Positions 6,291 to 58,775 of a stretch of DNA of 64,000 nucleotides are shown piece by piece. The stretch covers positions 3,968,001 to 4,032,000 of the forward strand of contig NZ_CP011451.1 in assembly GCF_001007935.1 (NCBI RefSeq). Reading direction: 5' to 3'. The notes under the pieces were generated by a model. That model ran no database searches. It was not told the origin of the DNA and was given only the letters and a program-made list of their open reading frames with translations. The stretch is from Nitrosomonas communis. Lineage in GTDB: Bacteria; Pseudomonadota; Gammaproteobacteria; Burkholderiales; Nitrosomonadaceae. The position numbers were made by a program, and so were the translations under genes. Positions within the stretch are counted from its first letter, which is position 1. The number at the start of each line of letters is the position of its first letter.

Positions 6291-6393
6291 ATTCCATTTC
6301 CAAATCAAAAATGAAGCAAAGGCGAGCCGCAGACAGTATCAATCATACGGTAAGGTGAAGCCGACAAAGTCAGTTTTAATTTAGAAATGGAAT
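6291..6393 (+). repeat. MITE-like repeat, copy A
   Basis: A 103-bp element with imperfect terminal inverted repeats of about 20 bp (ATTCCATTTCCAAATCAAAA at the left, its complement at the right). The core contains GCCGCAGACAGTATCAAT and the GCCGACAAAGTCAG block. It lies between archease and rtcB; the TAA stop of archease (6393-6395) overlaps its right end. Confidence 0.85.
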
Positions 6394-6833
6394 TATACGT
6401 CCACTACACAACGCGCTTCCCATATTGTGCCGATTTGCTTTACTGAAAGCATCGTTAAAGTCGCACCTTTAACCTCGACACCGTGTTCTAAATCCGCATG
6501 CCATTTTCCACCTAGCGCTTCAGCCTGCCATAAATTGCCCTGCCGGTGAATGCGAAAACGGCAAAAAACCATGCCTAGCTCACGTGCTTTTCCCAGCAGC
6601 AAATTTAACCAGGTTACCAGTGCGAATTCGAGATCTTCTTCTTCAAACTCAAAAGCCACAGAAATATCAGGCTGGACCGCTTCAAGATTGGTTACAATAG
6701 CAAATACTGCCTCAGCAGCTGACTCAAATGCTTGTTCGATCGTTGATCCACGTCCAATAATGCCGACATCGGCATCATGTTCAAAATAGTGTGAAATCAT
6801 TTTTATATTTTTGGACCAGACGCATTCATCCAT
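6393..6833 (-). CDS. Archease, activator of RtcB
   Basis: A small acidic protein that helps RtcB load GMP and turn over. Recognised from YFEHDADVGIIGRGST (EHxADxG metal site) and the C-terminal GATLTMLSVKQ-WEARCVVDV. The frame gives 146 aa, but family members usually begin close to the EHDADVG motif, so the true start may be the internal ATG at 6800 (135 aa); neither start has a clear ribosome site. Pairing with rtcB supports the call. Copies of the repeat in opposite orientation lie on either side, and the downstream copy supplies the stop codon. Confidence 0.85.
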   Translation of the reverse strand: MDECVWSKNIKMISHYFEHDADVGIIGRGSTIEQAFESAAEAVFAIVTNLEAVQPDISVAFEFEEEDLEFALVTWLNLLLGKARELGMVFCRFRIHRQGNLWQAEALGGKWHADLEHGVEVKGATLTMLSVKQIGTIWEARCVVDV

Positions 6834-6884
6834 CTAAATAATGCAGCCTGAAGAACATACGTCATAAATTAAAAATAGTGTCTA

Positions 6885-6991
6885 ATTCCATTTATTCCTA
6901 AATCAAAACTGACTTTGTCGGCTTCACCTTGCCGTATGATTGATACTGTCTGCGGCTCGCCTTTGCTTCATTTCTGATTTAGAAATGAAAT
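6885..6991 (-). repeat. MITE-like repeat, copy B (inverted relative to copy A)
   Basis: About 107 bp, reading in the opposite orientation to copy A: the GTCGGCTTCACC block comes first and CTGCGGCTCGCC later. The left arm contains a small duplication (ATTCCATTTATTCCTAAATC). It occupies part of the 450-base gap between archease and aroF; the rest (6992-7283) is A+T-rich and should hold the aroF promoter, but I cannot place it. Confidence 0.85.
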
Positions 6992-7283
6992 GACAAAAAA
7001 TATTTTAATACGGGCTATATAACCGAATGTGTGGAAGAATATAGCCAACCTGGCGGATAAAATACAATATTTACAATATTTTGACGCACGTCAAGCCGCA
7101 TCGATAAATTACTAAAAATAAATGGGAATAAAAAATCCCACAAGATTCGAGAACAGAGCCTTAACATTAGATAATCTAGCTAGACGTATAGTTGCATAAG
7201 CAATGACAATCCCTTCCGATTTCAGTTAGAATCGGTATCGAATCACTGTTATTTCATCTTGTAGAACTATATCAGGCATTTTT

Positions 7284-8405
7284 ATGATTCTTATTCTGAA
7301 ACCAGGCACTCTTCCCGAGAGCCATGAATATAAGCAGTTATTTGCACACCTTGCTAATCTTGCAGGTATCACCGTTCGCGTACACACGGAAGTCGGCATT
7401 GAGCAAACGTTAACTGAAGTCTATTTGATCGGTAATACGAAAGCATTATCGGTTGAAGACATGCAGAGTCTGTCGTGTGTTGACCGAGTCGTACGTATCT
7501 CAGAGGAATATCGGGTTCTCGGTCGACATGAAAATGATGATCGCCCGACTTATTTCGACTACAACGGTGTGCGTTTTGGTCAAGATACATTAAATATCTT
7601 TGCTGGGTTATGCGCTGTCGATACGCTAGAGCATGTGGAATTAATGCTAAAAGCATTGCGTGATCATGGTCAGGTTTGTACACGCATGGGCGCCTATAAG
7701 CCTCGCACGAGCCCATATTCATTCCAAGGGCATGGTAAAGCCTGCTTGCCCTATGTATTCGATCTTGCTGGTAAGTATGAGATCAAAGTGATTGCGATGG
7801 AAGTAACTCACGAATCCCACGTGGAAGAGATTCGGGAAGCGCTCTACCAAACTGGCACTTCAACGGGTGTGATGCTGCAGATTGGCACGCGTAATACCCA
7901 GAATTTTGAGTTATTGAAGATCGTTGGCCGCCAGCAGGATTTCCCCGTACTCATTAAGCGTGGTTTTGGTATTACCCTGGATGAATCTCTTAATGCAGCA
8001 GAATATCTGGCCTCTGAAGGCAATCGAAAAGTAGTTTTTGGCTTGCGTGGAATGAAAACCAATATGGGGGATCCTCATCGCAATTTTGTAGATTTTGCAC
8101 ATGTGCCTGTGGTCAAGCGTATGACACGTATGCCGGTTTGTATTGATCCTTCACACTCGATTGGTACTCGATCAAGCACACCGGATGGCATTCCTGATAT
8201 CATGCATGCAACTGCCCAGGGAATTATTGCAGGTGCCAATATGGTGCTGGTTGATTTTCATCCTGTACCTAGTAAAGCGCTGGTTGATGGCCCTCAAGCA
8301 TTATTACTCAAAGAATTACCCCTTTTTCTAGAAGATGTTCGTATCGCGCGCGAGGCTTATGAAAAGCGAGCAGATCTAGCCAAGCGATATCAGGAAGCCA
8401 GTTAG
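7284..8405 (+). CDS. aroF: 3-deoxy-D-arabino-heptulosonate 7-phosphate synthase (type I-beta)
   Basis: First step of the shikimate pathway, condensing PEP with erythrose 4-phosphate. The 373-aa protein has an N-terminal ferredoxin-like regulatory domain (about 1-75, MILILKPGT...) followed by a TIM barrel with GAYKPRTSPYSFQG, LIKRGFG, GLRGM and the metal site region CIDPSHSIGTR. That architecture is the type I-beta form rather than the E. coli AroFGH type. It stands alone on the plus strand, so coregulation with other aromatic genes is not visible here. Confidence 0.9.
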   Translation: MILILKPGTLPESHEYKQLFAHLANLAGITVRVHTEVGIEQTLTEVYLIGNTKALSVEDMQSLSCVDRVVRISEEYRVLGRHENDDRPTYFDYNGVRFGQDTLNIFAGLCAVDTLEHVELMLKALRDHGQVCTRMGAYKPRTSPYSFQGHGKACLPYVFDLAGKYEIKVIAMEVTHESHVEEIREALYQTGTSTGVMLQIGTRNTQNFELLKIVGRQQDFPVLIKRGFGITLDESLNAAEYLASEGNRKVVFGLRGMKTNMGDPHRNFVDFAHVPVVKRMTRMPVCIDPSHSIGTRSSTPDGIPDIMHATAQGIIAGANMVLVDFHPVPSKALVDGPQALLLKELPLFLEDVRIAREAYEKRADLAKRYQEAS

Positions 8406-8609
8406 GTTGTTCACGTATCAATAACTCATTTAAACGCTCATAATCAAGCTTGCGTGTATTTATGACTGAAGCGCGTACGCAATGATTGCAGAATTATTTT
8501 ACATAAATATCTTATAATCTCACCCTAAAGTATGTTAGGCCAAATTATTATAGATAGACGAAGGTATATTATCGGTGATACCAGGTATCGTCTTCATGGA
8601 GAATAACCA

Positions 8610-9593
8610 ATGATCAAAGTTTTGCTTGCAAACCCAAGAGGCTTTTGTGCGGGTGTCGATCGTGCCATCGAAATTGTTGAACGGGCATTAGCCATGCATG
8701 GCGCCCCCATTTATGTGCGACATGAAGTAGTGCACAATCGTTTTGTCGTGGAGGATCTGGAAAAAAAGGGAGCTGTATTTGTTGAGAACCTGGAAGAGGT
8801 TCCGCAAGAAAGTATTCTGATTTTCAGCGCCCATGGTGTTTCGCATGCGGTGCGACGAGAAGCAGCAGCACGCAAACTCAAGATATTCGATGCAACCTGC
8901 CCACTAGTAACGAAAGTGCATGTCGAAGTCGCAAAAATGCGCAAAGAAGGAAAAGAGATCATCATGATTGGCCATCAGGGCCATCCTGAAGTTGAAGGCA
9001 CGATGGGTCAAGTAGAAGGACATGATAGCGGTATGTATTTGGTAGAAACAGAAGAAGATGCTGCGAATTTACAAATTAAGAATGAGCATAATCTGACTTA
9101 TGTCACCCAAACGACCTTATCTGTCGATGATGCTGCACGCGTAATCGATGCATTAAAACGACGTTTTCCCAAAATCATAGGCCCGAAAAAGGACGATATC
9201 TGTTACGCCACACAAAACCGTCAGGATGCAGTTAAAAAGATGGTTAAACACTGCGATTTGGTCATAGTGGTGGGTTCTCCCAATAGCTCAAATTCCAATC
9301 GCTTATGTGAAGTAGCACGTAATGCCAATGTTGAAGCTTATATGGTTGACCGTGCTGAGCAATTACGGGAACAATGGTTAATTGGAAAAAGTTGCATTGG
9401 GATCACTGCCGGTGCCTCAGCGCCAGAAATATTAGTACAGCAGGTTTTAGACAGACTTAAGCAGATTGGCGCTGCACAAACCGGGCACGATGTCGTCATT
9501 GAGGAATTAAGTGGAGTTGTTGAGTCTGTAGTATTTCCCCTTCCTAAAGCAGAAGCGATTTCCATGGATAAATATGTGCGCGAAGCAAACTAA
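8610..9593 (+). CDS. ispH: 4-hydroxy-3-methylbut-2-enyl diphosphate reductase
   Basis: Last step of the MEP isoprenoid pathway, giving IPP and DMAPP; an iron-sulfur enzyme of the cytoplasm. Its three cluster cysteines are C13 ([13 protein letters not shown]), C97 (DATCPLV) and C198 ([11 protein letters not shown]); the catalytic glutamate is E127 in GHPEVEG. The GSPNSSNS loop binds the diphosphate. Length of 327 aa is normal. It converges with thiO so closely that the two stop codons overlap in the four bases at 9590-9593. Confidence 0.96.
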
Positions 9594-10702
9594 TCGACTC
9601 CCCATCCTTTCTGATAAGGACTGATATCAAAGGGTTGTGCTCTGCCCATAATTTCATTTAATAACATTTTGGCGCTACCTGGCGCCATGGTTACCCCATA
9701 GCGAAACTGCCCGCTATTGATAAATAGATTATTCAATAATGGATGACGTCCGATTGCGGGAATATTATGCGGCGAACCTGGTCTGAGACCCGCCCAATGC
9801 TTTATCAGGGGTCTCCCCTTTAACTGGGGCAACAATTTTTGTGCGCGTCCAGATAAATGCTCGTGTGCGGCCAGTGTCGTTTGCTTGTTAAAGCCAACAT
9901 CTTCCAGGGTGCTACCGACCAGTAAATGTCCATCGCGTCGAGGAATCAAATACACATCCCCCTGAAGCAAAATCGACCTGAGCGGTGATTCTTCAAACTT
10001 GTATAACAACATTTGCCCACGAATCGGCTTTATTTCGAGGCTGAGCGCATGCTTCCCTAACACTTGTTTGCTCCATGCACCTGCAGTGATGACAAAGTCA
10101 GCAGCACAATATTTGCCACAAGAGGTCCTAAGCGAGTGAACCCGATGATGCTGCGCTATGATTTCTTGTACTTCACAATGCTCAATGATGCGTCCACCGA
10201 GTTGTCCAACTTGCTGATATAACGCTCTTAATAAGCGAGGGTTACGCACCTGCGCGATATGGGGCAGAAACAGTGAATGTTCCATGGTTAAATGAAGAGG
10301 ATCGATTTGCTCGCTCAATGGAACAGATTGGGTGAGCGCATCCGCTTCCGCATTTACCCGATGTGATCTCTCCCATCTTTGTGCAGCCTCGATATGATAG
10401 GGTGGCAATACCAGCATCCCACTTACCACATATTCAGCATCAATACCGGTTGATGCGTACAGCTCTGCTACCCATGCTGAAAACATGGCTGCACTATATT
10501 CCGTTAGCTGTGTCACGCTATCGGGATAGTCCCACGGGCAGAGCGCCGACAAAATACCGCCCCCTGCCCAAGATGATTCCTGCCCAACCTTAGCTCGCTC
10601 CAAAATAGTGACCGTTGCACCTTCTTTCAGCAACTGAGCTGCAGTAGCAAGCCCCATCACGCCAGCACCAACAACAATAAAATCTTGAGTCACTTCATTC
10701 AT
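9590..10702 (-). CDS. thiO: FAD-dependent glycine oxidase, ThiO type
   Basis: An FAD-dependent amine oxidase of 370 aa, likely making iminoglycine for the thiazole half of thiamine. The Rossmann fingerprint GAGVMG lies at 12-17, with ATVTILER closing the second strand. Other family segments are SSWAGGGIL near the flavin, PIRGQML, and the C-terminal [15 protein letters not shown]. No thiS or thiG is adjacent, so the thiamine role is inferred from the family; a more general D-amino-acid oxidase remains possible. Confidence 0.82.
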
Positions 10703-10731
10703 ATCTCAATCGCGGCATCGCATGCAATTCA

Positions 10732-10845
10732 CTCCATTTTTAAATCTAATTCCAAATCAAAACTGACGAGAAGGTGAGCCAGGAACAGTATCAATAATAC
10801 GGCAAAGAGAGTCGACAAAATCAATTTTGATTTAGAAATCGAATA
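10732..10845 (+). repeat. MITE-like repeat, copy C
   Basis: About 114 bp in the orientation of copy A, with a diverged core (CAGTATCAATAATACGGC is kept). Its left arm looks partly duplicated: an ATTTTTAAATCT stretch precedes ATTCCAAATCAAAACTGACG. It lies between thiO and the divergent fimT; the remaining 10846-10993 should hold the pilin promoter. Confidence 0.8.
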
Positions 10846-10993
10846 GCCCATGCTTATCTATACTAGATACGGCTCGTCTCGGACTGACCGCTAAAATTAC
10901 TCTCACACGCTTAATGACCCATCAATGCAGGCTAAAGTTGATTAAAAATCATCCGTTACCTCTAGAGGAGAAAATAGGGAATAAAAATTTTAT

Positions 10994-11512
10994 ATGCTTG
11001 TTAATAGTGGTTTTACAATGTTAGAGCTTATGATTGCGCTGAGCATTGGCGCTATTTTAGCCACCATTGCAGTGCCGAGTTACCAATCGATGATGGTGCA
11101 ATCACGCCTTGCTACACAGGCGAATGAGTTTCTCACAGCACTTCATTTCAGCCGTTCTGAAGCAGTGAAACGCGGTATACGAATAACCATGTGTAAAAGC
11201 AGCAGTGGCACAACCTGTACAGCTGGTAGTAACTGGCAAGATGGCTGGATAGTATACAGCGATAGCGGGACAGCAGGGACAATGGATGGCAGCGATCAAA
11301 TTTTAAGAGTTTTTCCTGCATTGAAAGGCAGCACAATGGATGGTGGCTCAAAGTTTGCAGATTGGATTGCTTACTTACCTAATGGAAGTAGTCGAGGTGC
11401 GGGTGGCTTAGTAGGCACCGGCACTTTCACACTATGCAATAGCACAAAAGGACGCAAGATTACTATAAACGGTACAGGTCGACCATATACTGAGACGATG
11501 TCATCATGTTAA
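10994..11512 (+). CDS. fimT: Minor pseudopilin FimT/GspH family
   Basis: A type IV pilin-like protein of 172 aa that opens the minor pilin cluster. A very short leader ends at G6 before FTMLELMIALSIGAILATIAVPSYQSM, so PilD would cleave G6-F7 and methylate F7; E11 is the conserved Glu5 of mature pilins. The remainder is a GspH/FimT globular domain (SRSEAVKRG, DGWIVY, paired cysteines). Its stop overlaps the pilV start by seven bases. Minor pilins prime pilus assembly; FimT homologues have also been linked to DNA binding in competence. Confidence 0.87.
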   Translation: MLVNSGFTMLELMIALSIGAILATIAVPSYQSMMVQSRLATQANEFLTALHFSRSEAVKRGIRITMCKSSSGTTCTAGSNWQDGWIVYSDSGTAGTMDGSDQILRVFPALKGSTMDGGSKFADWIAYLPNGSSRGAGGLVGTGTFTLCNSTKGRKITINGTGRPYTETMSSC

Positions 11513-11946
11513 TCCTCAAAAGAAATTCTCAATTGCCACATCAGAAGGGTGTCACCATGATTGAAGTGTTAGTGGCAATCATTGTGCTATCCATTGGTTT
11601 GCTTGGCTTGGCAGGTCTGCAGTCTGCCGGGCTTACTTATAACCAGAGTGCAAGTTTTCGCTCTACTGCCACGATGATGACTTACAGTATTCTGGACAGC
11701 ATGCGTGCTAATCGTACTGCAGCAATTAATGGTAGTTATAACATCGCTATAGGCGCCTCCATCCCTTCCGGTAGCACCATTCCAGAGCAGGATCTTAACA
11801 ATTGGTTTAATGAATTGGCCTTGCGCTTACCCGCTGGCACAGGCGCCATTAATGTCGCCGGTAATGTCATTACCGTTACCATTCAGTGGGATGATAGCCG
11901 TGGTACTTTAGCTGCTCAGCAATTTATTCTGACTACCCAGCTATAG
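11506..11946 (+). CDS. pilV: Type IV pilus minor pilin PilV
   Basis: 146 aa with a prepilin leader ending at G15 and mature start VTMIEVLVAIIVLSIGLLGLAGLQ. This LSIGLLGLAGLQ motif is characteristic of PilV. The C-terminal part resembles the PilV soluble domain (ITVTIQWDDSRG). It overlaps fimT and is followed one base later by pilW, so it sits inside one operon. Confidence 0.88.
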   Translation: MLILKRNSQLPHQKGVTMIEVLVAIIVLSIGLLGLAGLQSAGLTYNQSASFRSTATMMTYSILDSMRANRTAAINGSYNIAIGASIPSGSTIPEQDLNNWFNELALRLPAGTGAINVAGNVITVTIQWDDSRGTLAAQQFILTTQL

Positions 11947-11947
11947 C

Positions 11948-12976
11948 ATGAAGAGAATAGCTATAACACAGCATGGTTTTACATTAGTTGAGGTGATGGT
12001 TGCCATGACCATTGGACTTTTGTTAATGAGTGGTGTCATCACCATTCTAACCTCCAGTCACCAAACCTATCGAGTCAACGATGCCCTAGCCAGAGTACAG
12101 GAAAATGCGCGCTATGCCTTCCACATACTTTCAAAAGATATCCGTATGGCTGGCTATTCGGGTTGCGCAGGCAATGGTGTGCCGACAGTGAATACCTTAA
12201 ATAACTCCGCAGATTTTTTATGGCGAATCGGGCAAGCTTTGGAGGGGTTCGAGGCGACCAGCGCAACGGGATGGACACCAGCTCTGCCTCCTTCAGGGGC
12301 TATTCCCAGTCCGCTAGGAGGACGAGATATTATCGTAGTGCGCGGAGTCGATGACAGTCCCACCAAGGTTACTCAACAACCTGGTGGAAATCCACCCGAC
12401 TCCGCTGATCTTAAAGTGACAGCTGGTAGCGGATTCAAAGAAAATGATATCGTCTTGGTTACTGATTGCATGGCATCAGCTATCTTTCAAATTACCCATA
12501 TCAATACTTCACAAGGAATGGACAATTTGGTGCATAACACTGGTAACCCAACCACAGACACGCCAGGAAATTATACAAAAGCCTTGGGTAAGGACTTTAC
12601 TAAAGGAGGCGAGCTCGTCAAGATTTCTACCCGCTCTTATTTTATTCGCATGGCAGAGGAATGGCCGGCACTTTATCGCAAGGTTGGAACAAACCCGGCG
12701 GAAGAGATGGTGAGAGGCATAGAAAACATGCAGATCGAATATGGCGAAGATCTCGATGAAAACTGGACAGTGGATAGCTATCGTACCGCCGATGCGGTGA
12801 CCAATTGGGGGAAAGTCGTCAGCGTCCGAATTAGTTTATTGATGCAATCGATAGAAGATAGTATCACCAGCCAACCCCAACCCTACACCTTTAACGGCAC
12901 GACAACCACCCCTACTGATCGGCGACTACGCCAGGCTTTTACCACTGTGGTAACATTGCGCAACCGAGTATCTTAA
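11948..12976 (+). CDS. pilW: Type IV pilus assembly protein PilW
   Basis: 342 aa with leader MKRIAITQHG cut before FTLVEVMVAMTIGLLLMSGVI, the prepilin helix. The following ARVQENARYAFHILSKDIRMAGYSGC is the PilW signature. It acts with PilV, PilX and PilY1 in the tip/priming complex of the pilus. It begins one base after the pilV stop and is followed 25 bases later by pilX. Confidence 0.9.
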   Translation: MKRIAITQHGFTLVEVMVAMTIGLLLMSGVITILTSSHQTYRVNDALARVQENARYAFHILSKDIRMAGYSGCAGNGVPTVNTLNNSADFLWRIGQALEGFEATSATGWTPALPPSGAIPSPLGGRDIIVVRGVDDSPTKVTQQPGGNPPDSADLKVTAGSGFKENDIVLVTDCMASAIFQITHINTSQGMDNLVHNTGNPTTDTPGNYTKALGKDFTKGGELVKISTRSYFIRMAEEWPALYRKVGTNPAEEMVRGIENMQIEYGEDLDENWTVDSYRTADAVTNWGKVVSVRISLLMQSIEDSITSQPQPYTFNGTTTTPTDRRLRQAFTTVVTLRNRVS

Positions 12977-13001
12977 TAAGTTCCAGTAAAAATGATGAGA
13001 C

Positions 13002-13523: not shown

Positions 13524-13535
13524 AGGGAGATAAAA

Positions 13536-16925: not shown

Positions 16926-16945
16926 CAATAGAAGAATTTAAACAA

Positions 16946-16968: not shown

Positions 16969-16989
16969 CATAGAATCTAATATCATTTA

Positions 16990-17091
16990 ATTCCATTTCC
17001 AAATCAAAAATGACGCGAAGGCAAGCCGCAGAAGTATCAATCATACGGCAAGGTGAAGCCAACCAAGTCAGTTTTGATTTGGAAATAGAAT
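16990..17091 (+). repeat. MITE-like repeat, copy D
   Basis: 102 bp, same orientation as copy A, with good terminal repeats (ATTCCATTTCCAAATCAAAA / TTTTGATTTGGAAATAGAAT). It splits the pilin cluster between pilY1 and pilE. Confidence 0.85.
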
Positions 17092-23459: not shown

Positions 23460-23580
23460 TGCCTCTCATTGCAGATCGAGACGCAGTTTTGTCAGTTTTT
23501 CATTGAACAACTAACCGTTGAGATGCTCTTCAAATTCTATATATTCTGAATCATTCTTATCTGGTTATGCTATATTGGTA
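23460..23580 (+). mobile_element. Relic of an IS 3' end (family not assigned)
   Basis: The tail TVEMLFKFYIF-stop (ending 23549) and the following bases (GAATCATTCTTATCTGGTTATGCTATATT) closely match the minus-strand sequence at 57880-57990, where the frame ends TVEMLFKFYTL-stop and continues to an IS-like end. The two sites are therefore copies of one element. It lies against the ISL3 relic. Confidence 0.5.
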
Positions 23581-23621
23581 TCGTTCGAATGCGCCGAACA
23601 CTCCTCTCGACAGTATACGTT

Positions 23622-23722
23622 ATTCCATTTTTAAATCTAAAGTGTATTTATTGAATTTTTTATCGATGTAATTTCAATTACTTGACACAATTAATAATTA
23701 ACTTTTGATTTAGAAATGGAAT
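23622..23722 (+). repeat. MITE-like repeat, variant copy E
   Basis: About 101 bp with the family's terminal inverted repeats (ATTCCATTTTTAAATCTAAA at left, TTTTGATTTAGAAATGGAAT at right) but an unrelated, very A+T-rich interior. Same ends with a different core suggests ends recognised by the same enzyme. Confidence 0.65.
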
Positions 23723-23915: not shown

Positions 23916-24641
23916 CTATGGATATGGCAGTTCAACATTATCCATGCGATCGAGGATGAATTGCTGGCGACGCAACAATCTTTTCGATGGATTGGCAGGG
24001 AGTCTTGAATTGGCGATAGCTGCGGCTAGCAAAGCCGCCTGCTCTCGGTTTAGTTTCGAGGCAGGGATTCTGAAATACATCCTGGCTGCTGCTTCTGCGC
24101 CCCAAATACCGTCGCCCCATTCGATCACATTCAGGTAGATCTCAAAAATACGATGCTTGCTAAGCTCAGTTTCGAGCTGCTGGACGATGAAGAGCTCACG
24201 CAACTTGAAGAACTGATTTTCCGAAGGCGAAGAATAAAGGTTCTTGGCTAACTGCTGTGTAAGGGTCGTACCCCCTGGTTCGTCAGTTCCTTTTTCTTCC
24301 AGTTCATTTCAACGTAATTAAGCAGCTTACCGAAATCGACACCTTCACGCGAAAAAAAAGTGGCATCCTGCGCCGCAAGTACCGCATGTTTCAGATGAGG
24401 AGATATCTGTTCGTACGGAACCCCGTACTGAATGTGTCGCTTTATTATGCCCTTATGCTGCGCCTCAGCGGCACGCATATCGATAAATGCGGTCGACGCA
24501 GGATTTGTTAGTCCGAAGGGAACGAATATCGGGTAGGGTGAAAAACACTTGTGCGACATAACAGGCAATGCCCACAACGACTACCATGATTACCCACCAC
24601 TAGCGTGAAGGCAACAGGGCATAAGAAGCATAAGCAGACAT
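23916..24641 (-). pseudogene. mtgA: Broken monofunctional peptidoglycan glycosyltransferase (mtgA)
   Basis: Reading from the ATG at 24641: an in-frame TAG at 24602-24600; a membrane anchor WWVIMVVVVGIACYVAQVFF; then a frame change to FIDMRAAEAQHKGIIKRHIQ; and a second frame change inside the run of G at about 24278-24284, before GTTLTQQLAKNLYSS and RIFEIYLNVIEWGDGIWGAEAAARMYF. These are the GT51 motifs in order. The catalytic motif EDxxFxxHxG reads QDATFFSREG, so the catalytic glutamate and the histidine are both changed. Three lesions plus an active-site loss argue for real decay, not one sequencing error. MtgA would polymerise lipid II in the periplasm. Confidence 0.82.
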
Positions 24642-24849: not shown

Positions 24850-25060
24850 GATGGCATCGAATTGCCAGAGTAGAGGTATTCTACTATTCCTGCCGGGGAT
24901 GTATTCACCTGGTTTAAATCCGCCGGAACACCTTTAGGATGAACTGAGAGAAGAATGCTTTCGCCCCCCAAAAAAAGTAAATCTGTCATGTGGAAAGTTC
25001 CTCCCACAACAGCAAAATTTCAGGGTTATGCAGATGCCTTAACAATCTTCAGTATCATTT
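24850..25060 (+). pseudogene. IS630-type transposase relic
   Basis: The plus-strand frame reads ILLFLPGMYSPGLNPPEHL-stop-DELREECF. This is the end of the IS630/Tc1-type DDE domain (LPPYSPELNPxEHLWDELRE), with the Trp codon turned into TAG. Only about 70 codons remain. The rest of 24642-25214 shows nothing else recognisable. Confidence 0.7.
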
Positions 25061-27922: not shown

Positions 27923-27988
27923 ATTCCCGTAATAAGTAAAAATGAACGTTTAACGGTCTCATTTTTTATTTTGATTTGGAAATGGAAT
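27923..27988 (+). repeat. MITE-like repeat, short copy J
   Basis: A clear right end (TTTTGATTTGGAAATGGAAT, ending 27988) with a possible degenerate left end (ATTCCCGTAATAAGTAAAAATG) 65 bases before. The usual core is missing, so this is a deletion derivative or a solo end. Confidence 0.5.
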
Positions 27989-32408: not shown

Positions 32409-32511
32409 ATTCCATTGCTAAATCAAAACTAACTTTGTCGGCTTCACCTTGCCGTATTATTGATATTGTCTGCGGTGCACCTTCGCGTCATGTTTGATTT
32501 GGAAATGGAGT
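32409..32511 (-). repeat. MITE-like repeat, copy F (inverted)
   Basis: 103 bp in the orientation of copy B: ACTTTGTCGGCTTCACCTTG, then the TATTATTGATATTGTCTGCGG core, then the right arm TTTGATTTGGAAATGGAGT. It lies between hslR and the porin gene. Confidence 0.85.
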
Positions 32512-42539: not shown

Positions 42540-42642
42540 ATTCCATTTCCAAATCAAAACTGGCGCCAAGGCGGGCCGCAGACAGTATCAATAATACGGC
42601 AAGGTGAAGCCGACAAAGTCGGTTTTGATTTAGAAATAGTAT
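42540..42642 (+). repeat. MITE-like repeat, copy G
   Basis: 103 bp, orientation as copy A, one of the best kept copies: GCGGGCCGCAGACAGTATCA, ATAATACGGCAAGGTGAAGC, CGACAAAGTCGGTTTTGAT. It sits 55 bases after the lipoprotein stop and about 100 before the redox protein gene. Confidence 0.88.
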
Positions 42643-49602: not shown

Positions 49603-49706
49603 TTCCAATTCTCCCCGTTCATACATAACGCGACGACGGGCTCTCAACACTATCAATAATAGCGCAAGAAGAAAACGACGAAGCAGGTTTGATTTAGAAC
49701 TGGCAA
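49602..49706 (+). repeat. MITE-like repeat, degenerate copy I
   Basis: A decayed 105-bp copy between ileS and lspA: left end ATTCCAATTCTCC, core ACTATCAATAATAGCGC, then GAAAACGACGAAGCAGG and right end TTTGATTTAGAACTGGCAA. Orientation as copy A. Being diverged, it appears older than the others. The A of the ileS stop codon is its first base. Confidence 0.65.
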
Positions 49707-49741
49707 ACATCTTTAATCCTCGTCCATCATAACTTTCACCA

Positions 49742-50206: not shown

Positions 50207-50334
50207 AAAAGATCAAAAATAACATAGAAGGTTTAATATCAATGTGGGTTGCCAACAAATTATTCCATTTTGATTTCCAATAAAAAATACATAATTTAAT
50301 ATAAACGATTAGAATTTAATTTTATTCTTATGAT

Positions 50335-50670: not shown

Positions 50671-52137
50671 TTAATCTTGCTTGCGCTTATCAATAAGGAA
50701 CGGCGTAAAGAGTGCCGGAATAACCTTTTTATTCGGTTGACTAATAGAATGAGAAACTTTATCGCTGGTATCTGATTTCTTTACCAGCGCCATAGGTACA
50801 TATGGTTGAGTAAAGATCGGATCAACTGGAATGGGTCGAGATGGTTTATTTCTTCCATAAGAAGCTGGTTGCTGCTTACCCCCACTATGTTTACTCCTTT
50901 CTAAGCCAGTCTTATGATGCATTAGCTTGCCATTATGCCCTTGATGATGCGTAGTTTGTGGAAAAACAGAATAATGACTCTTCCCAGTTTCAAACCCATT
51001 CGTTTTCGTCACAGCCAGTTTCGTTTGGAGCAGCTTCTCAATACCTACCAGATATTCCTTTTCATTTTCACTTACTAACGAAATGGCATTACCTTTACTC
51101 CCCGCACGGCCTGTTCGTCCAATGCGATGGATATAATCTTCTGGAACAGTTGGTAACTCGAAGTTAATTACATAAGTAAGACTCTCAATATCCAATCCCC
51201 GTGCGGCTACATCAGTTGCCACCAATGCCTGAATTTTTCCTTCTCTGAAATCATTAAGTGCTTGGGTACGTTGCTGCTGATTTTTATCGCCATGAATCGC
51301 TGTTGTTATTACATCATACTGCAAAAGTAGCTTGGCCAGACGATCTGCACCTTGTTTGGTTCTAACAAAAATCAAGACCTGTTTAAGATCATTTTGCTTA
51401 ATTAACTGCACCAATAATTCATGCTTGCGTTCAAGGTTAACTAAATGAACCCTGTGCGAGATGGATTGATTAATCGCATTGCGTTTTGCCACCTCAATTA
51501 AAATTGGCTGCTTCAGCAGCTTGTCAGCAAGTTGCTTGATTTCCTCAGAAAAAGTGGCAGAAAAAATCAAGCTCTGCCGCTGCTGAGGAAGCAACATAAG
51601 AATACGCTTGATATCTGGCAGGAAGCCCATATCGAGCATACGATCAGCTTCATCCAGGACTAAAATGGTTACGTTAGATAGATTGATGGTTTTCTGCTCA
51701 ATGTGATCTAATAGACGGCCGGGTGTTGCGACCAGAATTTCTACTCCAGCTTGCAGTTCCTTAATTTGAGGATCGATACTCGTACCGCCGAAAATTACCG
51801 TGCTTCGTAATTGTGTATATTTTCCGTAGTTTTTGACATTATCATGTATCTGCGTAGCAAGTTCACGTGTAGGTGCAAGTATCAATGCTCGAATAGGATG
51901 CTTGGCTGGTGAGGCACTCGAATTCGCATGAGATTGCAATCGATGCAACATGGGTAAGGTAAAGCTAGCTGTTTTTCCTGTGCCTGTTTCGGCACTACCC
52001 ATTATGTCTTTGCCTTCAAGGATATGTGGTATAACCTGAGCTTGTATTGGGGTCGGTTTGACATACCCGTGATCTGAGATTGCTCTCAGAAGCTCACTTG
52101 ATAAATTTAATTGATCAAATGCTGTGGGATTACTCAT
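50671..52137 (-). CDS. rhlE: DEAD-box ATP-dependent RNA helicase, RhlE type
   Basis: 488 aa: Q motif (FDQLNLSSELLRAISDHGYVKPTPIQ), Walker A AETGTGKT (49-56), DEAD at 162-165, SAT in FSATFSEEIK, and motif VI HRIGRTGRAGSKG. The core ends near 375; a basic, low-complexity tail of about 110 residues (RSKHSGGKQQPASYGRNKPS) would bind RNA. RhlE/CsdA-type helicases act in ribosome assembly and RNA decay, often in the cold. Exact subfamily is less sure than the helicase call. Confidence 0.9.
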   Translation of the reverse strand: MSNPTAFDQLNLSSELLRAISDHGYVKPTPIQAQVIPHILEGKDIMGSAETGTGKTASFTLPMLHRLQSHANSSASPAKHPIRALILAPTRELATQIHDNVKNYGKYTQLRSTVIFGGTSIDPQIKELQAGVEILVATPGRLLDHIEQKTINLSNVTILVLDEADRMLDMGFLPDIKRILMLLPQQRQSLIFSATFSEEIKQLADKLLKQPILIEVAKRNAINQSISHRVHLVNLERKHELLVQLIKQNDLKQVLIFVRTKQGADRLAKLLLQYDVITTAIHGDKNQQQRTQALNDFREGKIQALVATDVAARGLDIESLTYVINFELPTVPEDYIHRIGRTGRAGSKGNAISLVSENEKEYLVGIEKLLQTKLAVTKTNGFETGKSHYSVFPQTTHHQGHNGKLMHHKTGLERSKHSGGKQQPASYGRNKPSRPIPVDPIFTQPYVPMALVKKSDTSDKVSHSISQPNKKVIPALFTPFLIDKRKQD

Positions 52138-52179
52138 AAATCTGTTCAGTCTTTGTGACTGTATTTAAAAATTGTTTGA

Positions 52180-52959
52180 TTATTCTGTCTCCTGTTGAAT
52201 ACTACGTTTAGATTTATCGGTTCTTAGCCACTGATTAAATTTATTCATGATATTTTGGACAAGGGGTGCACCACCAATAGCCACTGCATCAACGAGACAG
52301 TACCAGGCAGCAACACCACTGGGAGGATTTCCTTGCGATAAGTTAAAAATGGGCTCAAGCTTTGCCCAATACCATGTTCCAGCAGCTGTACCAATCAACT
52401 CTAACCAGGTGGTGATAAAAAAAGCAGCCAGATAAACCATGGGAGATCTACCTTTGAATAGATAGATGAGAAACACACAAAATAATATTGCTCCTACCTG
52501 ATCTCCCTGTTCGGGGATGCCACTAACTCCCCAAAACGACCAGATGCCGCATACGACTACAACGAATGCAGCAATTTTCCTCGCATATTTAAGGAAAAAA
52601 CCTGAACGAGCCAGCGCGACTGCCGTTAAATAAACCATTCCATGTCCTGGAGGTACATATAAAGGTACATTTTCAAACCTGTAAGTATACCCCCCCATAT
52701 AAACAGAGGCAAAATGCTCACCTGCTGTCGCAAATGCCACGGCAATCACTACTTGTATTCTTATTTCCTTATTTTCACCTGCTAATAAACCAATTAAAAA
52801 TACCCATGCTATGATCCCCAGCAGATTCTGAATGATCAAATTTGCATGCGCATCGATAATCAGGCTTACCGCCACACAAAAAAATGTAAAAGCAGCGATG
52901 AAGTAATCTCGCTTCTTGTGAATACAAACCACATCAGGTGCGGGGAAATAACGAAGCAT
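52180..52959 (-). CDS. Unassigned polytopic membrane protein next to the hao cluster
   Basis: 259 aa with about seven hydrophobic helices. Distinct conserved-looking segments between helices are EHFASVYMGGYTYRFENVP, LYVPPGHGMVYLTAV, and WAKLEPIFNLSQGNPPSGV then AWYCLVDAV. The tyrosine/proline/histidine-rich loops recall membrane enzymes, but I cannot place the family. The N-terminus (MLRYFPAPDV) has no signal peptide. It lies downstream of cycA on the same strand, separated by about 240 bases including a probable terminator, so a link with HAO is only positional. Confidence 0.7.
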   Translation of the reverse strand: MLRYFPAPDVVCIHKKRDYFIAAFTFFCVAVSLIIDAHANLIIQNLLGIIAWVFLIGLLAGENKEIRIQVVIAVAFATAGEHFASVYMGGYTYRFENVPLYVPPGHGMVYLTAVALARSGFFLKYARKIAAFVVVVCGIWSFWGVSGIPEQGDQVGAILFCVFLIYLFKGRSPMVYLAAFFITTWLELIGTAAGTWYWAKLEPIFNLSQGNPPSGVAAWYCLVDAVAIGGAPLVQNIMNKFNQWLRTDKSKRSIQQETE

Positions 52960-53112
52960 TTATTACCTTAATGGAATAAAAAAATAAAGAGCTCATCATA
53001 TCCGACGAGCACATGTAATCTTGGTACTTTATATTTGCATTAAGGACCATTAAGCAAAGTAAGCACACTATTATCTTCATTTAAAAAAGATAATAGCGGG
53101 CCATAAGAAAAC

Positions 53113-53145
53113 TAGCTGGGAGATACCACTTTATTCTTCCCAGCA
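53113..53145 (-). terminator. Probable terminator of the hao operon
   Basis: On the minus strand GCTGGGA pairs with TCCCAGC around a long loop, followed by TAGTTTTC. It lies about 60-90 bases past the cycA stop. Confidence 0.55.
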
Positions 53146-53201
53146 TAAGATGGGTACTGATGAAATTTTACCAAAAACAAACGTTTTTATTCTTTACTTT
53201 T

Positions 53202-53918
53202 TTACTCTTCTTTTCCTTTTTCACCTTCTTTGGCATTGGCCTGGAATTCATCGTGATACTTGAATTTAGGTTCACCCACAAACACACCATCGAGTTTGAA
53301 GTGCTCGTGCATGGCTTTCACATCTTTGACCATTTTATCAAAGTCAAAGGCGTATTTCGGATCCACGTCCGGAGTAAAGGGGGTGTAAGGCGGTTTCGCA
53401 TCTTTCCAGGGCGAACCTTCATAGTTCAGGTGACAGGCATTGCAGCTTTCTTCAAACGCAAAGTCTTGTCCTTTGTCTGCCAGGGTTTTACGCGGCGTGG
53501 TCTTGTTTGATTTCTCAAAAGCTTGCCCGGCCTTGCGGTGATCGCCACGGTAATTTTTGCCCGGTCCATGACAGGATTCACAGCCTACTCCTGTCAGCGG
53601 TTTTTTCGGGGCATCAATGCTATAGCCGCCTGTTTTGCCAAATCCGTCGACATGACAGCCGACGCAGTCTTTGTCCTGGGTATAGTCTTTCTCAGGATCC
53701 AGCTTGGCTTTGACTTTGGCTTCCTTTTTGGTATTGGGCTTGAGCGATTCCATCGCTTTGGCATGGGCGGTGTCTTTCCAGGATTTGGCTTGCGATTTGT
53801 GACAGTTGCTGCATTTGGTGCGACCTTCAAATGGGGCGTCTGAGGCGGCGATAGCAGCGCCTGTCATGAATGCAAACATGGCTGCGATAGCAACGGCATA
53901 GGCTGTAATGTACTTCAT
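53202..53918 (-). CDS. cycA: Cytochrome c554 (tetrahaem)
   Basis: Periplasmic electron acceptor of HAO, taking two electrons per turnover toward cytochrome cM552/quinone. 238 aa with signal peptide (about 1-25) and four CxxCH sites at 36-40, 85-89, 113-117 and 159-163 (KCSNCHK, DCVGCHV, GCESCHG, SCNACHL). The C-terminal lysine/glutamate-rich tail (QANAKEGEKGKEE) is polar. Its ATG overlaps the haoB stop by four bases. The usual next gene, cycB, is missing. Confidence 0.94.
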   Translation of the reverse strand: MKYITAYAVAIAAMFAFMTGAAIAASDAPFEGRTKCSNCHKSQAKSWKDTAHAKAMESLKPNTKKEAKVKAKLDPEKDYTQDKDCVGCHVDGFGKTGGYSIDAPKKPLTGVGCESCHGPGKNYRGDHRKAGQAFEKSNKTTPRKTLADKGQDFAFEESCNACHLNYEGSPWKDAKPPYTPFTPDVDPKYAFDFDKMVKDVKAMHEHFKLDGVFVGEPKFKYHDEFQANAKEGEKGKEE

Positions 53919-55066
53919 GTTCTCTCCTCTCTTTTAATTTGGGTCTTGATTATCATCCGGCTAAGCCTCAATTGTACGCGATCATCGGATTGTGTAAATG
54001 GTTTTGATGCGATCAGGGGTATTGGTTGGCGGCTCGCTTCATGGCAGCTTGTATACCCAGTATCCCCTTGTTGATAAACGAGTTGCACCGCCTGGAGGTT
54101 CAGTGGCGGCTCTTTCTCAGTAAAAGGCAGCAGACGCGCCATGAGGGTCTGCGTGCTGGGCTCGTCGGCAAGAAAGAATGCCCGGATGTCGCGATCAGAC
54201 AGGGATTGCAGGGTATAGGTGTTGTAATCATGTTCTTTCATCTCGACTTTCATGTGGTTGATCAGCCCATGGATATTGCCGGTCAGCATGAAGTTTTTGT
54301 AGGCAACGCCAAATTTGTCCGGGTGCAGCAGTCCTAATTTGTATAAGTCAGAGACATGGATCACGAGGTAGGCTTCCTGGTTGGGGCCAATCAGGTCACG
54401 CAGTTTGGCTGCGCCTGCTTCGGGCGGTTGCAGCAGGGCTTCAGTAAAGCGCTGGAACTGGTCTCGTTCTTGTGCGGTGGGCACACTGTGTGAAAGGTCG
54501 CTTTCATAGGTACGGATGGTGTCGGCATGCTGCTGCCAGCGCGCCGGAATGATGAGCGGTTCATTTAAGTGTGCGTTAAACAGGGTGTTGCGTTCGGACA
54601 GCAGGTGTATTTGACGCGAGGTATCCCACCAGGCCAGGATAAGGGCGTCCGGCGAGACGTATTTGCCGATGGCGCTGGCTAATGCGCTCAGCTCCGAGGG
54701 TTTGCGCTCCAGGGCAAGCAGCGGTTCTCCCGTTTGATTTTCCCAGTTGAGCAGTACCGGCCCTTCTTTTTCCTTTTGCCCGAAATAGGCCAGCGCAATG
54801 GGCTGGTCTTTTTCTGCTATGTGTATTTCATATTTGCTGACCTTGAGCGTCGGCCAGGCTTCCAGTTCGAGTTCCGGAAATTGGTTCGCTTCCCCTTCTG
54901 CGATCAGCTGGTAGTGATAGGGGGCTGTCTGCGGTGTCAGCCAGAGATAAGCAAACCAGCTAAGTAAAATGAAACCTCCCGTTACGAGCGTGATGCCTAG
55001 TAACGGGAGGAGCTTGTCTTGCCAGCGCCCCCCGGGGGGGCGCTGTTTGTCATTGGCAGTACTCAA
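53915..55066 (-). CDS. haoB: HaoB, HAO-cluster membrane-anchored partner
   Basis: 383 aa, the 'orf2' that always sits between haoA and cycA in Nitrosomonas-type clusters. One N-terminal membrane helix (about 17-40, [22 protein letters not shown]) and a large soluble, presumably periplasmic, domain without CxxCH motifs. Its start codon is TTG, which overlaps the haoA stop (TTGA at 55063-55066), so translation depends on haoA. A role in HAO maturation or anchoring is often suggested but not proven. The identification rests mainly on context. Confidence 0.88.
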
Positions 55067-56775
55067 GCTTTGTTTTGCTTACGTTTACGCCAGCCGATCA
55101 GCGCGAGCGTGCCAGCCAGCAGCAGGCCACCGCCGAGTCCGCCCAGTGAGATTTTTTCACTGTTGCTGTTCAGGTCAAGCAGACTGGTTTTGCTTCCTTC
55201 CAGTTTGTTGACGCGTTCCTGCAGGGTGAGCATTTCGCGCAGTCGGGTGTGTTCGTCCTGAATTTCGACATAGGCGCGATTCATTGGACCCCATCCTTCC
55301 GTATAGGTCCAGCCACCGGGGTTGACGTGGGCAAAGCCTACGTGCATTTTAGCAAGGTCGTTCTCAGCCATTTCGAGTACTTTGAGTTCCATCGAGGCCG
55401 GGTTGTTGCCTTTTGACCAGAACAGCTGGGTGAATTGGCCAAAGCCCGGTTTGTCAGGAGCAGGCGGGGCCGGACGGTTGGTTTTTTGTCCGGTCAGCAG
55501 GCCTTCATCGTAGAGCTTCTTGACGATGTCATGGGCTTCCTGATATTTGGCCAGGCCTTCGAGCGTGCCTTTGTCCATGAGTTCCAGGTAGGTGCGCGCA
55601 AAACGCTCGGAGTGACATTGACTACAGGTGGCTGCCCAGGAGTCGAGTCGTTTTTCTGACCATTCGCTGGTGATGTTTTCAGCCACACCGGGTACAAACG
55701 GATAGTTGGCCCAGCGTACTTTTCGTACCATGTTGTGCGCGTATTCGCCTTCATATTCCATGTGGCAGCTGGCACAGGTGGGGGCGCTTTGGCCGCCTTT
55801 TTCAAAGGCGTCTTTCAAGGGCACGTCCCAGTTCCATTTGTCGCCCATCATGGCGGTGACTTTGCCGTGTTTGGACATGGAGTAGGCTTCCCAGTTGTTG
55901 TGGTCTACCCCGCTGTGGCAGGTGGCGCAGGCTTCCGGTTTACGGGATTCTGCCGCAGAAAATTCATGCCGGGTATGACAGCCGTCACATTTGTTCTGGT
56001 TGTAGTGGCACATGGAGCAGCCTTCAGCCACTTCGCGCTGCGGCATAGCAGCCCAGACGGTGGTTTCGATGTTGGCTTTCCAGTCCAGTGCATGCGAGGG
56101 GCGTCCTTCCGGCCATTGTCCATTCGGGAAAATCATGGTGTCGCGTTCCGATTCACGCTCGGCAAATTCGCGCAGGTGACAGGTGCCGCAGGCGTCAGCG
56201 GTCGGCATGCGGATGTCTTTGGTGTGATCCGCTTTCTTCTTGGTGTTTATTTCGACGTGGCAGTCGATACAGCCTACTTCCTTCAGATTCTCCTTGGCAC
56301 CCAGTTTACCGAGAGAACGCAGGTTATTTTCGACTTCCTCCAGCTTTTCCTTTTTGTAATATTTCGCATCTTCCGGTTTCAGTTTACGTACTTCGTCCAG
56401 GTTAGCATGGGTGCTGCGTTTCCAGGCTTGTACCCAGACCGGTGATTCGTCGGAGTGACATTCGACGCATTCTTGACGCGTGACGACTTCCTTGACCGAT
56501 GAAGGGGATTTGTAAAAGGTGGTCGGGTCCAAATACATGCTATAGGGAATCGGCTCCCAGTATTCAGCCATCGTGCCACGTCCTGCTCCCTGAGCAGGAT
56601 CCTTGTAGCGCTTGACCAGCGCGTCGTAGGTCTCCTTCGGCGTTGCCTTGCTACGATCCAGATTCAGTGCCTTGTATGTCTCATCCGGCACGGTCGACAG
56701 GTTCGCATGCACTGCTCCCGCCATCATTACTCCACAGGCTATCGCTAGCCCTTTCAGCCATTTTCTGGCATCCAT
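55063..56775 (-). CDS. haoA: Hydroxylamine oxidoreductase
   Basis: Periplasmic enzyme that oxidises hydroxylamine from ammonia monooxygenase, the energy-yielding step of ammonia oxidation. The start at 56775 is preferred over the ATG at 56808: GGAGAGAGGA directly precedes it and it gives a 570-aa precursor with a clean 24-aa signal peptide. Eight CxxCH motifs begin at residues 103, 169, 196, 253, 263, 283, 334 and 384. Y491 (GGWTYTEGW) aligns by spacing with the P460-crosslinking tyrosine of the N. europaea trimer. A C-terminal membrane helix (about 542-562) ends in a basic tail. Base composition is richer in G+C than the neighbours. Confidence 0.97.
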
Positions 56776-56904
56776 TCCTCTCTCCTTCTTTCTTATGTTG
56801 TTATCCATTCATGCCCATCTAAAAATGCCTATCCATTTCTTCCGATAGCTTGAGCATAAAGTCAATACTAACCCATACTTCTTTTTCTTTACTTGTAACT
56901 CCCA

Positions 56905-56934
56905 AGCCTACTTCTTTGACCATATCTGTGTCAA
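56905..56934 (-). promoter_or_regulatory. Candidate promoter of haoA
   Basis: On the minus strand TTGACA (56934-56929) is followed after 18 bases by TAGGCT (56910-56905). The -35 box is perfect and the -10 box poor; it lies about 130 bases before the haoA start. Confidence 0.3.
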
Positions 56935-56971
56935 GGATTTTGGGTGATAAATTATTATCCAGCTAATTAAA

Positions 56972-57742
56972 TTATGATTTCTCAGTAATTTCTTTGGCTG
57001 AATTTTTTTTAGACCGCAAGAAAAAGTACGCGACTCCGCCTGCTAAACCGAGCAAGAGCATGATCTCCAGCATGCCAATACCACCACCATGGCCCCCATG
57101 CCCACCCTCTCCACCAACATGCAGCGGAACACGAACAGCAGTACGCACAGTATCACCTTCTACTTTTTCCAGTAGTATTGCATATTGACCAAGCTCCTTA
57201 AGCTCTGTCGCCACAACAACAATTCCAGAAGGATAGGTTGTGGGCGCCATATAAAAGCCATCATGTGCTTTATCTTTATGCTCTTCATTTTTATTCACTT
57301 GATGCCCAGCATGAGCATCATGATTAGCGTGACCTTTATGCTCATTATGGTTCATTTCATGATCTTGCTCTTTATTGTCGCTGTTATTCGCCGCTGTGTT
57401 GCCCTTAACTTCTCCCCCATGCCCCTCATGCCCCTCTTTTACAAGGCGTACGGCAAGCGGTATCTCACGCGCTTCAGTAGGCAGCTCAATCGTCACATTT
57501 ACTTTTCCAATATTTGGCACATGATCACAATAGGAATGCATGGGAGGAATATCACCTTCCGGCACTTCATATATGCTGACAGTTACCGGAAACTCTCCCT
57601 CTTTAACTTGACATCCACCATGCCCAGCATGATGTCCCTCATGCGCAAGCATCAACTGTGCATGAAGGGAAAAAGCTGCTAATGAAAATATTGCTGCTAC
57701 GCATAATTGCACAACCCATCTATTACGTGAAGCCTTTCTCAT
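56972..57742 (-). CDS. Histidine-rich periplasmic protein with C-terminal membrane anchor
   Basis: GGAG five bases before the ATG at 57742 favours that start (256 aa) over 57772. A signal peptide (about 1-33) leads to HEGHHAGHGGC, a domain with MHSYCDHVPNIGKVNVTIEL and APTTYPSGIVVVATELKELG resembling small beta-sandwich metallochaperone-type domains, interrupted by a very His/Asn/Glu-rich stretch (HEMNHNEHKGHANHDAHAG). A GEGGHGGHGGG linker precedes a membrane helix (LEIMLLLGLAGGVAYFFL) and basic tail. Metal binding on the periplasmic side is strongly suggested; the metal is unknown. It lies immediately upstream of haoA and near a Zur/TonB unit. Confidence 0.72.
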   Translation of the reverse strand: MRKASRNRWVVQLCVAAIFSLAAFSLHAQLMLAHEGHHAGHGGCQVKEGEFPVTVSIYEVPEGDIPPMHSYCDHVPNIGKVNVTIELPTEAREIPLAVRLVKEGHEGHGGEVKGNTAANNSDNKEQDHEMNHNEHKGHANHDAHAGHQVNKNEEHKDKAHDGFYMAPTTYPSGIVVVATELKELGQYAILLEKVEGDTVRTAVRVPLHVGGEGGHGGHGGGIGMLEIMLLLGLAGGVAYFFLRSKKNSAKEITEKS

Positions 57743-57850
57743 ACATTCTCCAAAATCTTTAATCTTAAACAACTTGTAATTGTAACTTACTCAGCAATAT
57801 TGAATATTGCCCAGCATATTTGCTCTGATGGATTGTATAACAAAATTTAA

Positions 57851-58016
57851 GGAAGGTCTGAATAAGTATGCCATGAAAACAATGTAGAGAATTTAATCAG
57901 AAAAATTCAAATATAGCTTAACCAGCTAAGAATGATTCATAATGTATAGAATTTGAAGAGCATCTCAACGGTTTGGCAATGTTGTTTACGCAGTACTTTG
58001 GCGTATGCCCATTTAT
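57851..58016 (-). mobile_element. Relic of an IS 3' end
   Basis: The minus strand encodes WAYAKVLRKQHCQTVEMLFKFYTL-like text ending at a TGA (57939-57937), in transposase style, then runs to an end reading GGAAGGTCTGAATAAG on the plus strand at 57851, which looks like an IS terminal repeat. The tail and flank are shared with 23510-23580. The family is not assigned. Confidence 0.5.
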
Positions 58017-58243
58017 GCCTGATGTGTCAACACTTTTCTGGACACAAAGTTAAGCAGCATTTTGCTGCAACTCGAAGTCAACGGGCGATATATATCCATT
58101 AGCTGAATGCAATCGCTCTCGGTTGTAAAACACTTCGATATATTCAAACACAGCCTGTTTACCTTCTTCCCGAGAAGAAACGTTTGATGATGGATCAATT
58201 CTGTTTTTAAGGTATGGAAGAAGCTTTCCGATACGGGTCGAGT
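58016..58243 (-). pseudogene. IS3-family transposase OrfB, 3' remnant
   Basis: Minus strand reads VSESFFHTLKTELIHHQTF, then after a one-base frame change SSREEGKQAVFEYIEVFYNR and ERLHSANGYISPVDFELQQN, AA-stop (58052-58050). This is the end of the integrase catalytic domain of IS3-group OrfB. The bases beyond it (TGTGTCAACACTTTTC...) are probably the IS end. The 5' part is replaced by group II intron sequence. Confidence 0.8.
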
Positions 58244-58310
58244 CACCTGAAGGGAGCCGCTCCCTTCAGGTGCTCGTAACCGTACGTGAACCTCTCGATT
58301 CATACGGCTC
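58244..58310 (-). ncRNA. Group II intron 3' end (domains V and VI)
   Basis: On the minus strand GAGCCGTATGAATCGAGAGG with TTCACGTACGGTT (58310-58278) forms the 33-34 nt domain V hairpin, followed by CACCTGAAGGGAG-CGGC-CTCCCTTCAGGTG-type pairing (58272-58244), a domain VI stem. It lies directly against the IS3 OrfB text, so an intron inserted in that transposase gene. The upstream intron body is gone. Confidence 0.7.
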
Positions 58311-58393
58311 TTGTTATTCGTTATTCAGCCGCCCAATGCCAAACACACCAATGTGCAAATAATGTTGGATATTGCCGATATCGTTGCCGCAAC

Positions 58394-58576
58394 CATTGGC
58401 TGGCTTTATGGGCGAGGAGGAAATACAAAAAGCTCAAGCATCACAGAAGACGTGCGGAATACCGACTTGGCTGCATTGCTAAAATGCATCCTGGTATGTT
58501 TCCGCATTGGAAGATGGGTGTGAGACCAATGGTTGTATAATGGGAGCCCAGTGAGTTGAGAGGCTCACGCTGGGTT
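58394..58576 (+). mobile_element. Second group II intron remnant: maturase C-terminus plus domain V
   Basis: The plus frame WLALWARRKYKKLKHHRRRA...LGCIAKMHPGMFPHWKMGVRP ending at a stop at 58540 matches the C-terminal end of group II intron reverse transcriptase/maturases. Immediately after, GAGCCCAGTGAGTTGAG with AGGCTCACGCTGGGTT (58544-58576) folds as domain V. It faces the other intron remnant head to head, and no domain VI is visible. The region 58577-58667 shows nothing recognisable. Confidence 0.65.
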
Positions 58577-58667
58577 AACGGGGCAAACAGGCACTCAGCA
58601 AAGCGGATGCGCGCAAATATGAATTTTTAAAGGCTCCTTAAAGTCAATAAACCTAACTTTATGATGC

Positions 58668-58775
58668 TTTCCATTTCTAAATCAAAACTGAGTTTGTCGG
58701 CTTCACCTTACCGCATTATTTTATTTATACTGTCTGCGGTTCGCCTTCGCGTTATTTTTGATTTAGAAATGGAAA
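58668..58775 (-). repeat. MITE-like repeat, copy H (inverted)
   Basis: 108 bp in the orientation of copy B (GAGTTTGTCGGCTTCACCTT ... ACTGTCTGCGGTTCGCCTTC), with a few extra bases in the centre (TTATTTTATTTATAC). It separates the group II intron relic from the IS481-type relic. Confidence 0.85.

Follow-up and report, generated by a model that had tools for sequence, protein, structure and literature searches.

What are the short repeats that recur between the genes of Nitrosomonas communis, how do they move, and why do they keep the same core? The question is raised by a window of 64,000 nucleotides (positions 3968001-4032000 of the 4,067,838-bp single-contig genome), in which a profile made from copies elsewhere in the genome identifies a repeat of ~101 bp in both orientations; seven of its copies are complete and one is degenerate. 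The repeats are miniature inverted-repeat transposable elements (MITEs): they are short and non-coding, carry terminal inverted repeats, are present in many copies, duplicate their target, and, at one site, are absent from two relatives. We consider it probable, at roughly 0.7, that they are non-autonomous transposons moved by an IS5-like DDE transposase and that they belong to one family, including the Correia elements of Neisseria, in which a structured core is carried under varied ends.

The inverted ends of the repeat are 19-20 bp long and read TTCCATTTCYAAATC. The 3-base flanks were found to be identical in 29 of 56 full copies, whereas shuffled pairs gave a mean of 15.4 and a maximum of 25 over 2000 shuffles. 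The identical flanks are TAA/TAA or TTA/TTA in 26 of these 29 copies, and no copy has four or more identical bases. The target duplication, which the initial annotation had been unable to fix by eye, is a 3-bp TWA (TTA or TAA). Copy A (6292..6392, plus strand) is bounded by TTA at 6289-6291 and 6393-6395, and in two relatives, G051 and G011, the same flanks meet at a single TTA with the element missing, which is a precise empty site. G018, the closest relative (95% identity across 13 kb), is colinear across copies A-D, so fixation of the sites in relatives holds for G018 and fails at copy A for the other two. The inverted ends, the TWA duplication, and the precise empty site bear out the proposal of the initial annotation that the repeats are MITE-like, non-coding, and moved in trans.

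The family described for the window recurs across the genome. In an 804-kb sample (37 stretches and the window), a profile of 27 copies gave 75 matches, 59 of them near-full, and none in the reversed sequence. By extrapolation, the genome holds about 380 copies, or roughly 1% of its DNA. With up to two mismatches, the 4.07-Mb genome has 247 + 240 = 487 occurrences of the end pattern and 172 of the core pattern; the corresponding controls (backwards for the ends) gave 0 in each case, which excludes chance. The repeats do lie between genes and in both orientations, as had been noted: 58 of the 59 near-full copies are outside called open reading frames (ORFs), although 76% of the sample is called coding. 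Across a sample of the genus, the core (up to two mismatches) is present in 10 of 61 genomes, N. communis included, at 1-172 copies each, and the other 51 have none.

The core is also found far outside the genus. An exact scan with the pattern GCCGCAGACAGTAYMAATNRTACGGC, run on a collection described by its tool as 84,980 species genomes, returned at least 116 stretches, and among the matches listed all 116 titles are betaproteobacterial. The hosts listed include Nitrosomonas, Neisseria (with N. gonorrhoeae), Cupriavidus, Pseudogulbenkiania, Chromobacterium, Conchiformibius, and others; the core also occurs in Eleftheria with unrelated ends. We take the Neisseria copies to be Correia elements (CREE, NEMIS), a connection that was not part of the earlier reading of this DNA. 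Correia elements are about 105 bp long with inverted ends, like the Nitrosomonas repeat, and N. gonorrhoeae copies are among the matches. The core GCCGCAGACAGTA-N-GTACGGCAAGGC is common to both, the apical fold is the same in the copy that was folded, and the two are joined by a weak blastn match (E 2e-3). They differ in their ends, which read TATAGTGGATTAA in Correia elements and TTATTCCATTTC in Nitrosomonas, so that by a strict definition based on Correia ends the Nitrosomonas repeat falls outside. They differ also in their target duplication, which is TA for Correia elements as opposed to TWA here.

Upon folding, the core forms an apical motif, GCC-[GCAGACA]-GUAY-N5-RUAC-[GGCAA]-GGC, in which a 4-bp hairpin stands above an almost invariant 7x5 internal loop (GCAGACA/GGCAA). 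This structure replaced an earlier model in which GCC paired across a 7-nt bulge to the first GGC. The apical motif of minimum energy was identical in six of six elements chosen from five lineages, with z from -3.9 to -9.8. Covariation was determined with 55 diverse apical sequences and 500 shuffles. They had been collected with the core pattern, allowing up to four mismatches, so that the apical stem and GCC/GGC are constant in part by design of the search; the pairs of columns 4-8 with columns 40-44 lie outside the search pattern. Paired cells amounted to 77.4% (68.5% shuffled), double-change cells to 69 (37.6 shuffled), and the covariation score to 0.252 (0.140 shuffled), with 0 of 500 shuffles as high for each of the three measures. 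Nine pairs carried a double change, relative to 6.4 when shuffled (5/500). When the partner was slid by 1-3 columns, at most 39.1% of the cells were paired, with a score of 0.148. The subset of 39 sequences, with 16 that have insertions or more changes omitted, gave 80.8% paired cells and 53 double-change cells versus 26.2. Columns 7-8/40-41 form a tandem G.A / A.G step in many copies and Watson-Crick pairs in others. Four loop positions account for 51 of the 66 mismatches in 38 copies found with up to three mismatches at any position, and the Y-R closing pair in 95 copies is TA in 61, CG in 32, CA in 2, and TG in 0. Rfam had 0 matches in the window and, at gathering score, none in eight element-bearing loci, with none over the core; a known Rfam family was ruled out on that basis.

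A covariance model, R1, was derived from 39 of these 55 apical sequences. With an E cut-off of 0.001 and no more than 15 candidates scored in each genome, R1 matches 89 of 399 genomes of the order, in 47 of 158 genera. It matches 5 of 369 genomes of a class sample, three of which belong to the order by kinship, leaving 2 of 365 outside the order. The arms that flank the core vary by lineage: TATAGTGGATTAA in Neisseria, ATTCCATTTC in Nitrosomonas, and GAGCCGCTAACAAAAC in Pseudogulbenkiania. In Cupriavidus, they are private to each copy, with within-copy complementarities of 15, 13, 5, 9, 4, 6, 5, and 12 against a cross-copy maximum of 7, clear in four of eight copies. For 48 elements (one of 49 was dropped), the median complementarity is 13 within an element versus 6 across elements, and clustering of their left arms gave 13 groups, of which three are large (18, 11, and 8). 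The Nitrosomonas repeats, the Correia elements of Neisseria, and many elements of the betaproteobacterial order are suggested to be one family. An element on the Pseudomonas aeruginosa plasmid NZ_CP017294.1 (L442), located between two genes near a mer operon, is likely a member as well; its blastn match has an E of 0.08, its apical stem reads GCGCTG-CAA-CAGCGC, and the GCAGACA strand is retained. Several Pseudogulbenkiania loci (L363, L365, L382, and others) carry extra sequence with GAATC...GATTC hairpins directly after the apical motif.

Within N. communis, a second subfamily of four elements in the 804 kb combines the MITE ends and length with an unrelated AT-rich core. The ends and the core are therefore separable modules, since the same ends occur here on a different core and the same core occurs across the order with unrelated ends. 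It also follows that the local mover does not depend on the core; even so, something maintains the core. We favor a role in which the core would act for the element itself as a folded single strand.

The enzyme was sought through the ends. The genome has 101 PF01609 and 59 PF13358 matches, and 60 transposase loci fetched from these were scanned. In these loci, the profile recognizes whole or partial MITEs 12 times, and single ends match 26 times at up to four mismatches (two in the reversed control), 19 within MITEs and seven outside, none of them paired. Of 145 end matches within the 804 kb, 24 are outside the profile matches; among these, inverted pairs with a spacing of up to 3000 bp occur only in the second subfamily, as its four elements of 98-99 bp. 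In G011, 52 ends with up to three mismatches were found (two in the control); the 45 with up to two mismatches are all in MITE copies or fragments, and the seven with three mismatches were left out. The unpaired ends among the 45 turned out to be truncated MITEs. One G011 element of 45 bp (contig C92, 27602-27646; L268) consists of two ends back to back with the middle nearly absent. The ends of IS (insertion sequence) elements could be set for only three IS groups of the N. communis genome, and none is like that of the MITE. In the locus at 3142428-3145928 of the same genome (L292), a 307-amino acid PF01609 element with ends TAACGTGAGTTCGACATAAGAA has inserted into a MITE core.

A lead was obtained from Chromobacterium sphagni, where the reading frames of an 863-bp element match DUF4096 and DDE_Tnp_1 (IS4/5 families). 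Its ends, GACCCGCTAACRAAACCT, agree at 16 of 18 bases with GAGCCGCTAACAAAACCC, the MITE end of a sister class (GAG...CTC). What looked like a 1.7-kb IS in C. sphagni (contig C9) was in fact a MITE split by another element. Subgroups of IS5 (IS427/IS1031-like) follow a TNA target rule, and the TWA of the Nitrosomonas repeat is of the 3-bp TNA type used by IS5-family MITEs; three Eleftheria and Cupriavidus metallidurans copies have TTA/TTA flanks. Judged by the target and by the resemblance of the sister end class to the ends of the C. sphagni element, an IS5-family-like enzyme would be the likeliest mover.

The mechanism that we propose is as follows. A DDE transposase supplied in trans would act on the inverted ends and produce the 3-bp TWA duplication. 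The shared structured core sits on a long stem whose sequence varies by lineage while its self-complementarity is retained. The core would be maintained in the form of a folded single strand (ssDNA or RNA), aiding the element in spreading or in being tolerated, and it would have been combined with different transposase ends in different hosts. The copies, their ends, the duplication, one empty site, the common core, its covariation, and the separability of ends and core are observed directly, whereas the enzyme and what the core does are inferred. A more specific version, in which one structured module has spread through the order by being exchanged, through recombination, between the ends of different transposases, with Correia elements as one branch, and is recognized in its folded single-stranded form by a conserved host or transposition factor, is tentative, and we hold it at somewhat less than even odds.

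A number of observations weigh against the proposed mechanism. No clean empty-site alignment was obtained for site D, and sites B and C were not resolved. No autonomous partner with the Nitrosomonas ends, the full-length IS to which the initial annotation had looked, was found in the 804 kb, in the 60 transposase loci, or among the G011 ends with up to two mismatches. The IS5 link is an analogy with the sister class: ends were matched for the GAG class only, and no IS5-family IS was found to share the ends of the ATTCC class, that of Nitrosomonas. The C. sphagni element itself is flanked by TTA and TAA, an imperfect duplication, and the duplication test for GAG-ended elements is weak (9 of 29 identical, with a shuffle mean of 4.8 and a maximum of 10). 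The elements with the same ends and another core mean that the core is not strictly needed for movement. For the fold, 47 further loci were collected and four were set aside for a poor core match; folding of the other 43 reproduced the exact motif in 21 and the hairpin alone in 10, while 12 showed neither. Further pair types numbered 22 versus 22.6 in shuffles, which is no excess, and each of the inner pairs at columns 7-8/40-41 fails to form in 34 of 55 rows. The 95th percentile of the cross-element arm scores is surpassed by only 30 of the 48 elements. The strand of the copies relative to neighboring genes is unbiased (16 same, 14 opposite).

Other explanations must be weighed against an IS5-like mover and a core kept as a folded strand. 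The initial annotation named an IS630-type relic at 24850 as a possible source, which would make the repeats MITEs mobilized at TA sites by a Tc1/mariner-like transposase. The 59 PF13358 matches are in line with this, and Neisseria members start with TATAGT, compatible with TA targets, but the flanks here are TTA/TTA and TAA/TAA (3 bp) rather than TA. The resident IS630-type elements with settable ends terminate in TATAGCAGATCCC / TATAGCATGTCCCC, different from the MITE, and near 24850 Pfam detected a transposase in none of the six frames tested of the 30 listed, two of these being a split transglycosylase gene. IS630 was dismissed as the source on these three grounds, and we regard this origin as highly improbable. 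The core might alternatively be a relic of an IS5-type transposase gene, namely of its 3' end, retained through the repeated birth of MITEs from IS ends. The C. sphagni IS (L406) does contain CGCAGACAG, part of the MITE core, 28 nt inside one end and antisense to C-terminal ICLR codons. This match was noticed post hoc and spans only 9 nt, and the covarying apical pair and the GGCAA strand would be left unexplained, making such a descent very unlikely.

If the core were functionless, its conservation would merely reflect the recent horizontal spread of element families. The core or a relative is found on the P. aeruginosa plasmid and on 11 viral contigs, and exact-pattern searches favor recent copies. 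However, within the 47 nt the loop and arms vary freely while the internal loop is fixed and the pairs are compensated; recency would spare all positions alike, and this unequal change renders the explanation unlikely. Finally, the repeats could be regulatory or RNA-processing hairpins kept by the host in untranslated regions, a REP-like domestication rather than a parasite. The intergenic position of nearly all near-full copies fits this idea, as does the cleavage of Correia transcripts by RNase III. The absence of orientation bias argues against a role in host transcripts, which was rejected for that reason; the empty site in two relatives and the range of 0 to 172 copies per genome within the genus, with most genomes at 0, point the same way. 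We judge a host-kept hairpin to be quite unlikely.

Palindromes of the repetitive extragenic (REP) and bacterial interspersed mosaic element (BIME) types, which are associated with RAYT transposases, are likewise short, intergenic, hairpin-forming, and present in many copies. The Nitrosomonas repeat is longer and, unlike them, duplicates its target and has terminal inverted repeats. A MITE is ordinarily recognized by its ends, and its middle is taken to be expendable; in the present family it is the ends that change, while the structure of the middle is conserved across the order. Correia elements have long been treated as a Neisseria peculiarity of unknown parentage. The shared core would link them to a widespread family and provides a concrete motif for seeking the protein that reads it.

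All of the sites for which the initial annotation had reported repeats exist, with ends as it quoted them, and the profile recovers eight copies. R1 recovers seven of the eight, and none of its 39 sequences is present verbatim in the window. The apical core of copy A is at 6318..6364 (plus strand; R1 E 1.2e-10). Copy B, complete, is at 6886..6990 on the minus strand with a 4-bp insertion in its low-coordinate end (profile match 6894-6990), and its core is at 6918..6964 (minus; E 1.3e-12). The diverged copy C was placed by its profile match at 10744..10843 (plus), with its core at 10770..10816 (plus; E 1.2e-4). Copies D (16991..17089, plus) and F (42541..42639, plus) both have TAA/TAA flanks; their cores are at 17017..17062 (plus; E 6.6e-10) and 42567..42613 (plus; E 3.3e-11), respectively. 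Copies E (32410..32509) and G (58669..58774), both on the minus strand and placed by profile match, have cores at 32438..32484 (minus; E 5.1e-12) and 58697..58748 (minus; E 6e-7), and the apical loop of G is enlarged. The degenerate copy H at 49615..49703 (plus; profile match E 2.5e-8) is the one missed by R1. The core-swapped copy reported near 23622 is real and is the second-subfamily element at 23623..23721, with the MITE ends and length; three more such copies are in 740 kb. The shortened copy near 27923 and the end at base 1 are present, but each is reduced to one end, at 27969..27987 (a truncated copy) and at 2..20 (the window edge).

Two further features of the window are distinct from the MITEs. 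The transglycosylase gene (PF00912) at 23916-24580 on the minus strand is in two reading frames and is a probable pseudogene. A 74-nt inverted-repeat pair, 89% complementary, is located at 23513-23586 and 57900-57973; near it, an ORF at 58013-58303 (minus strand) has a weak integrase-core match below the cut-off, and the pair is perhaps made of IS3 remnants.

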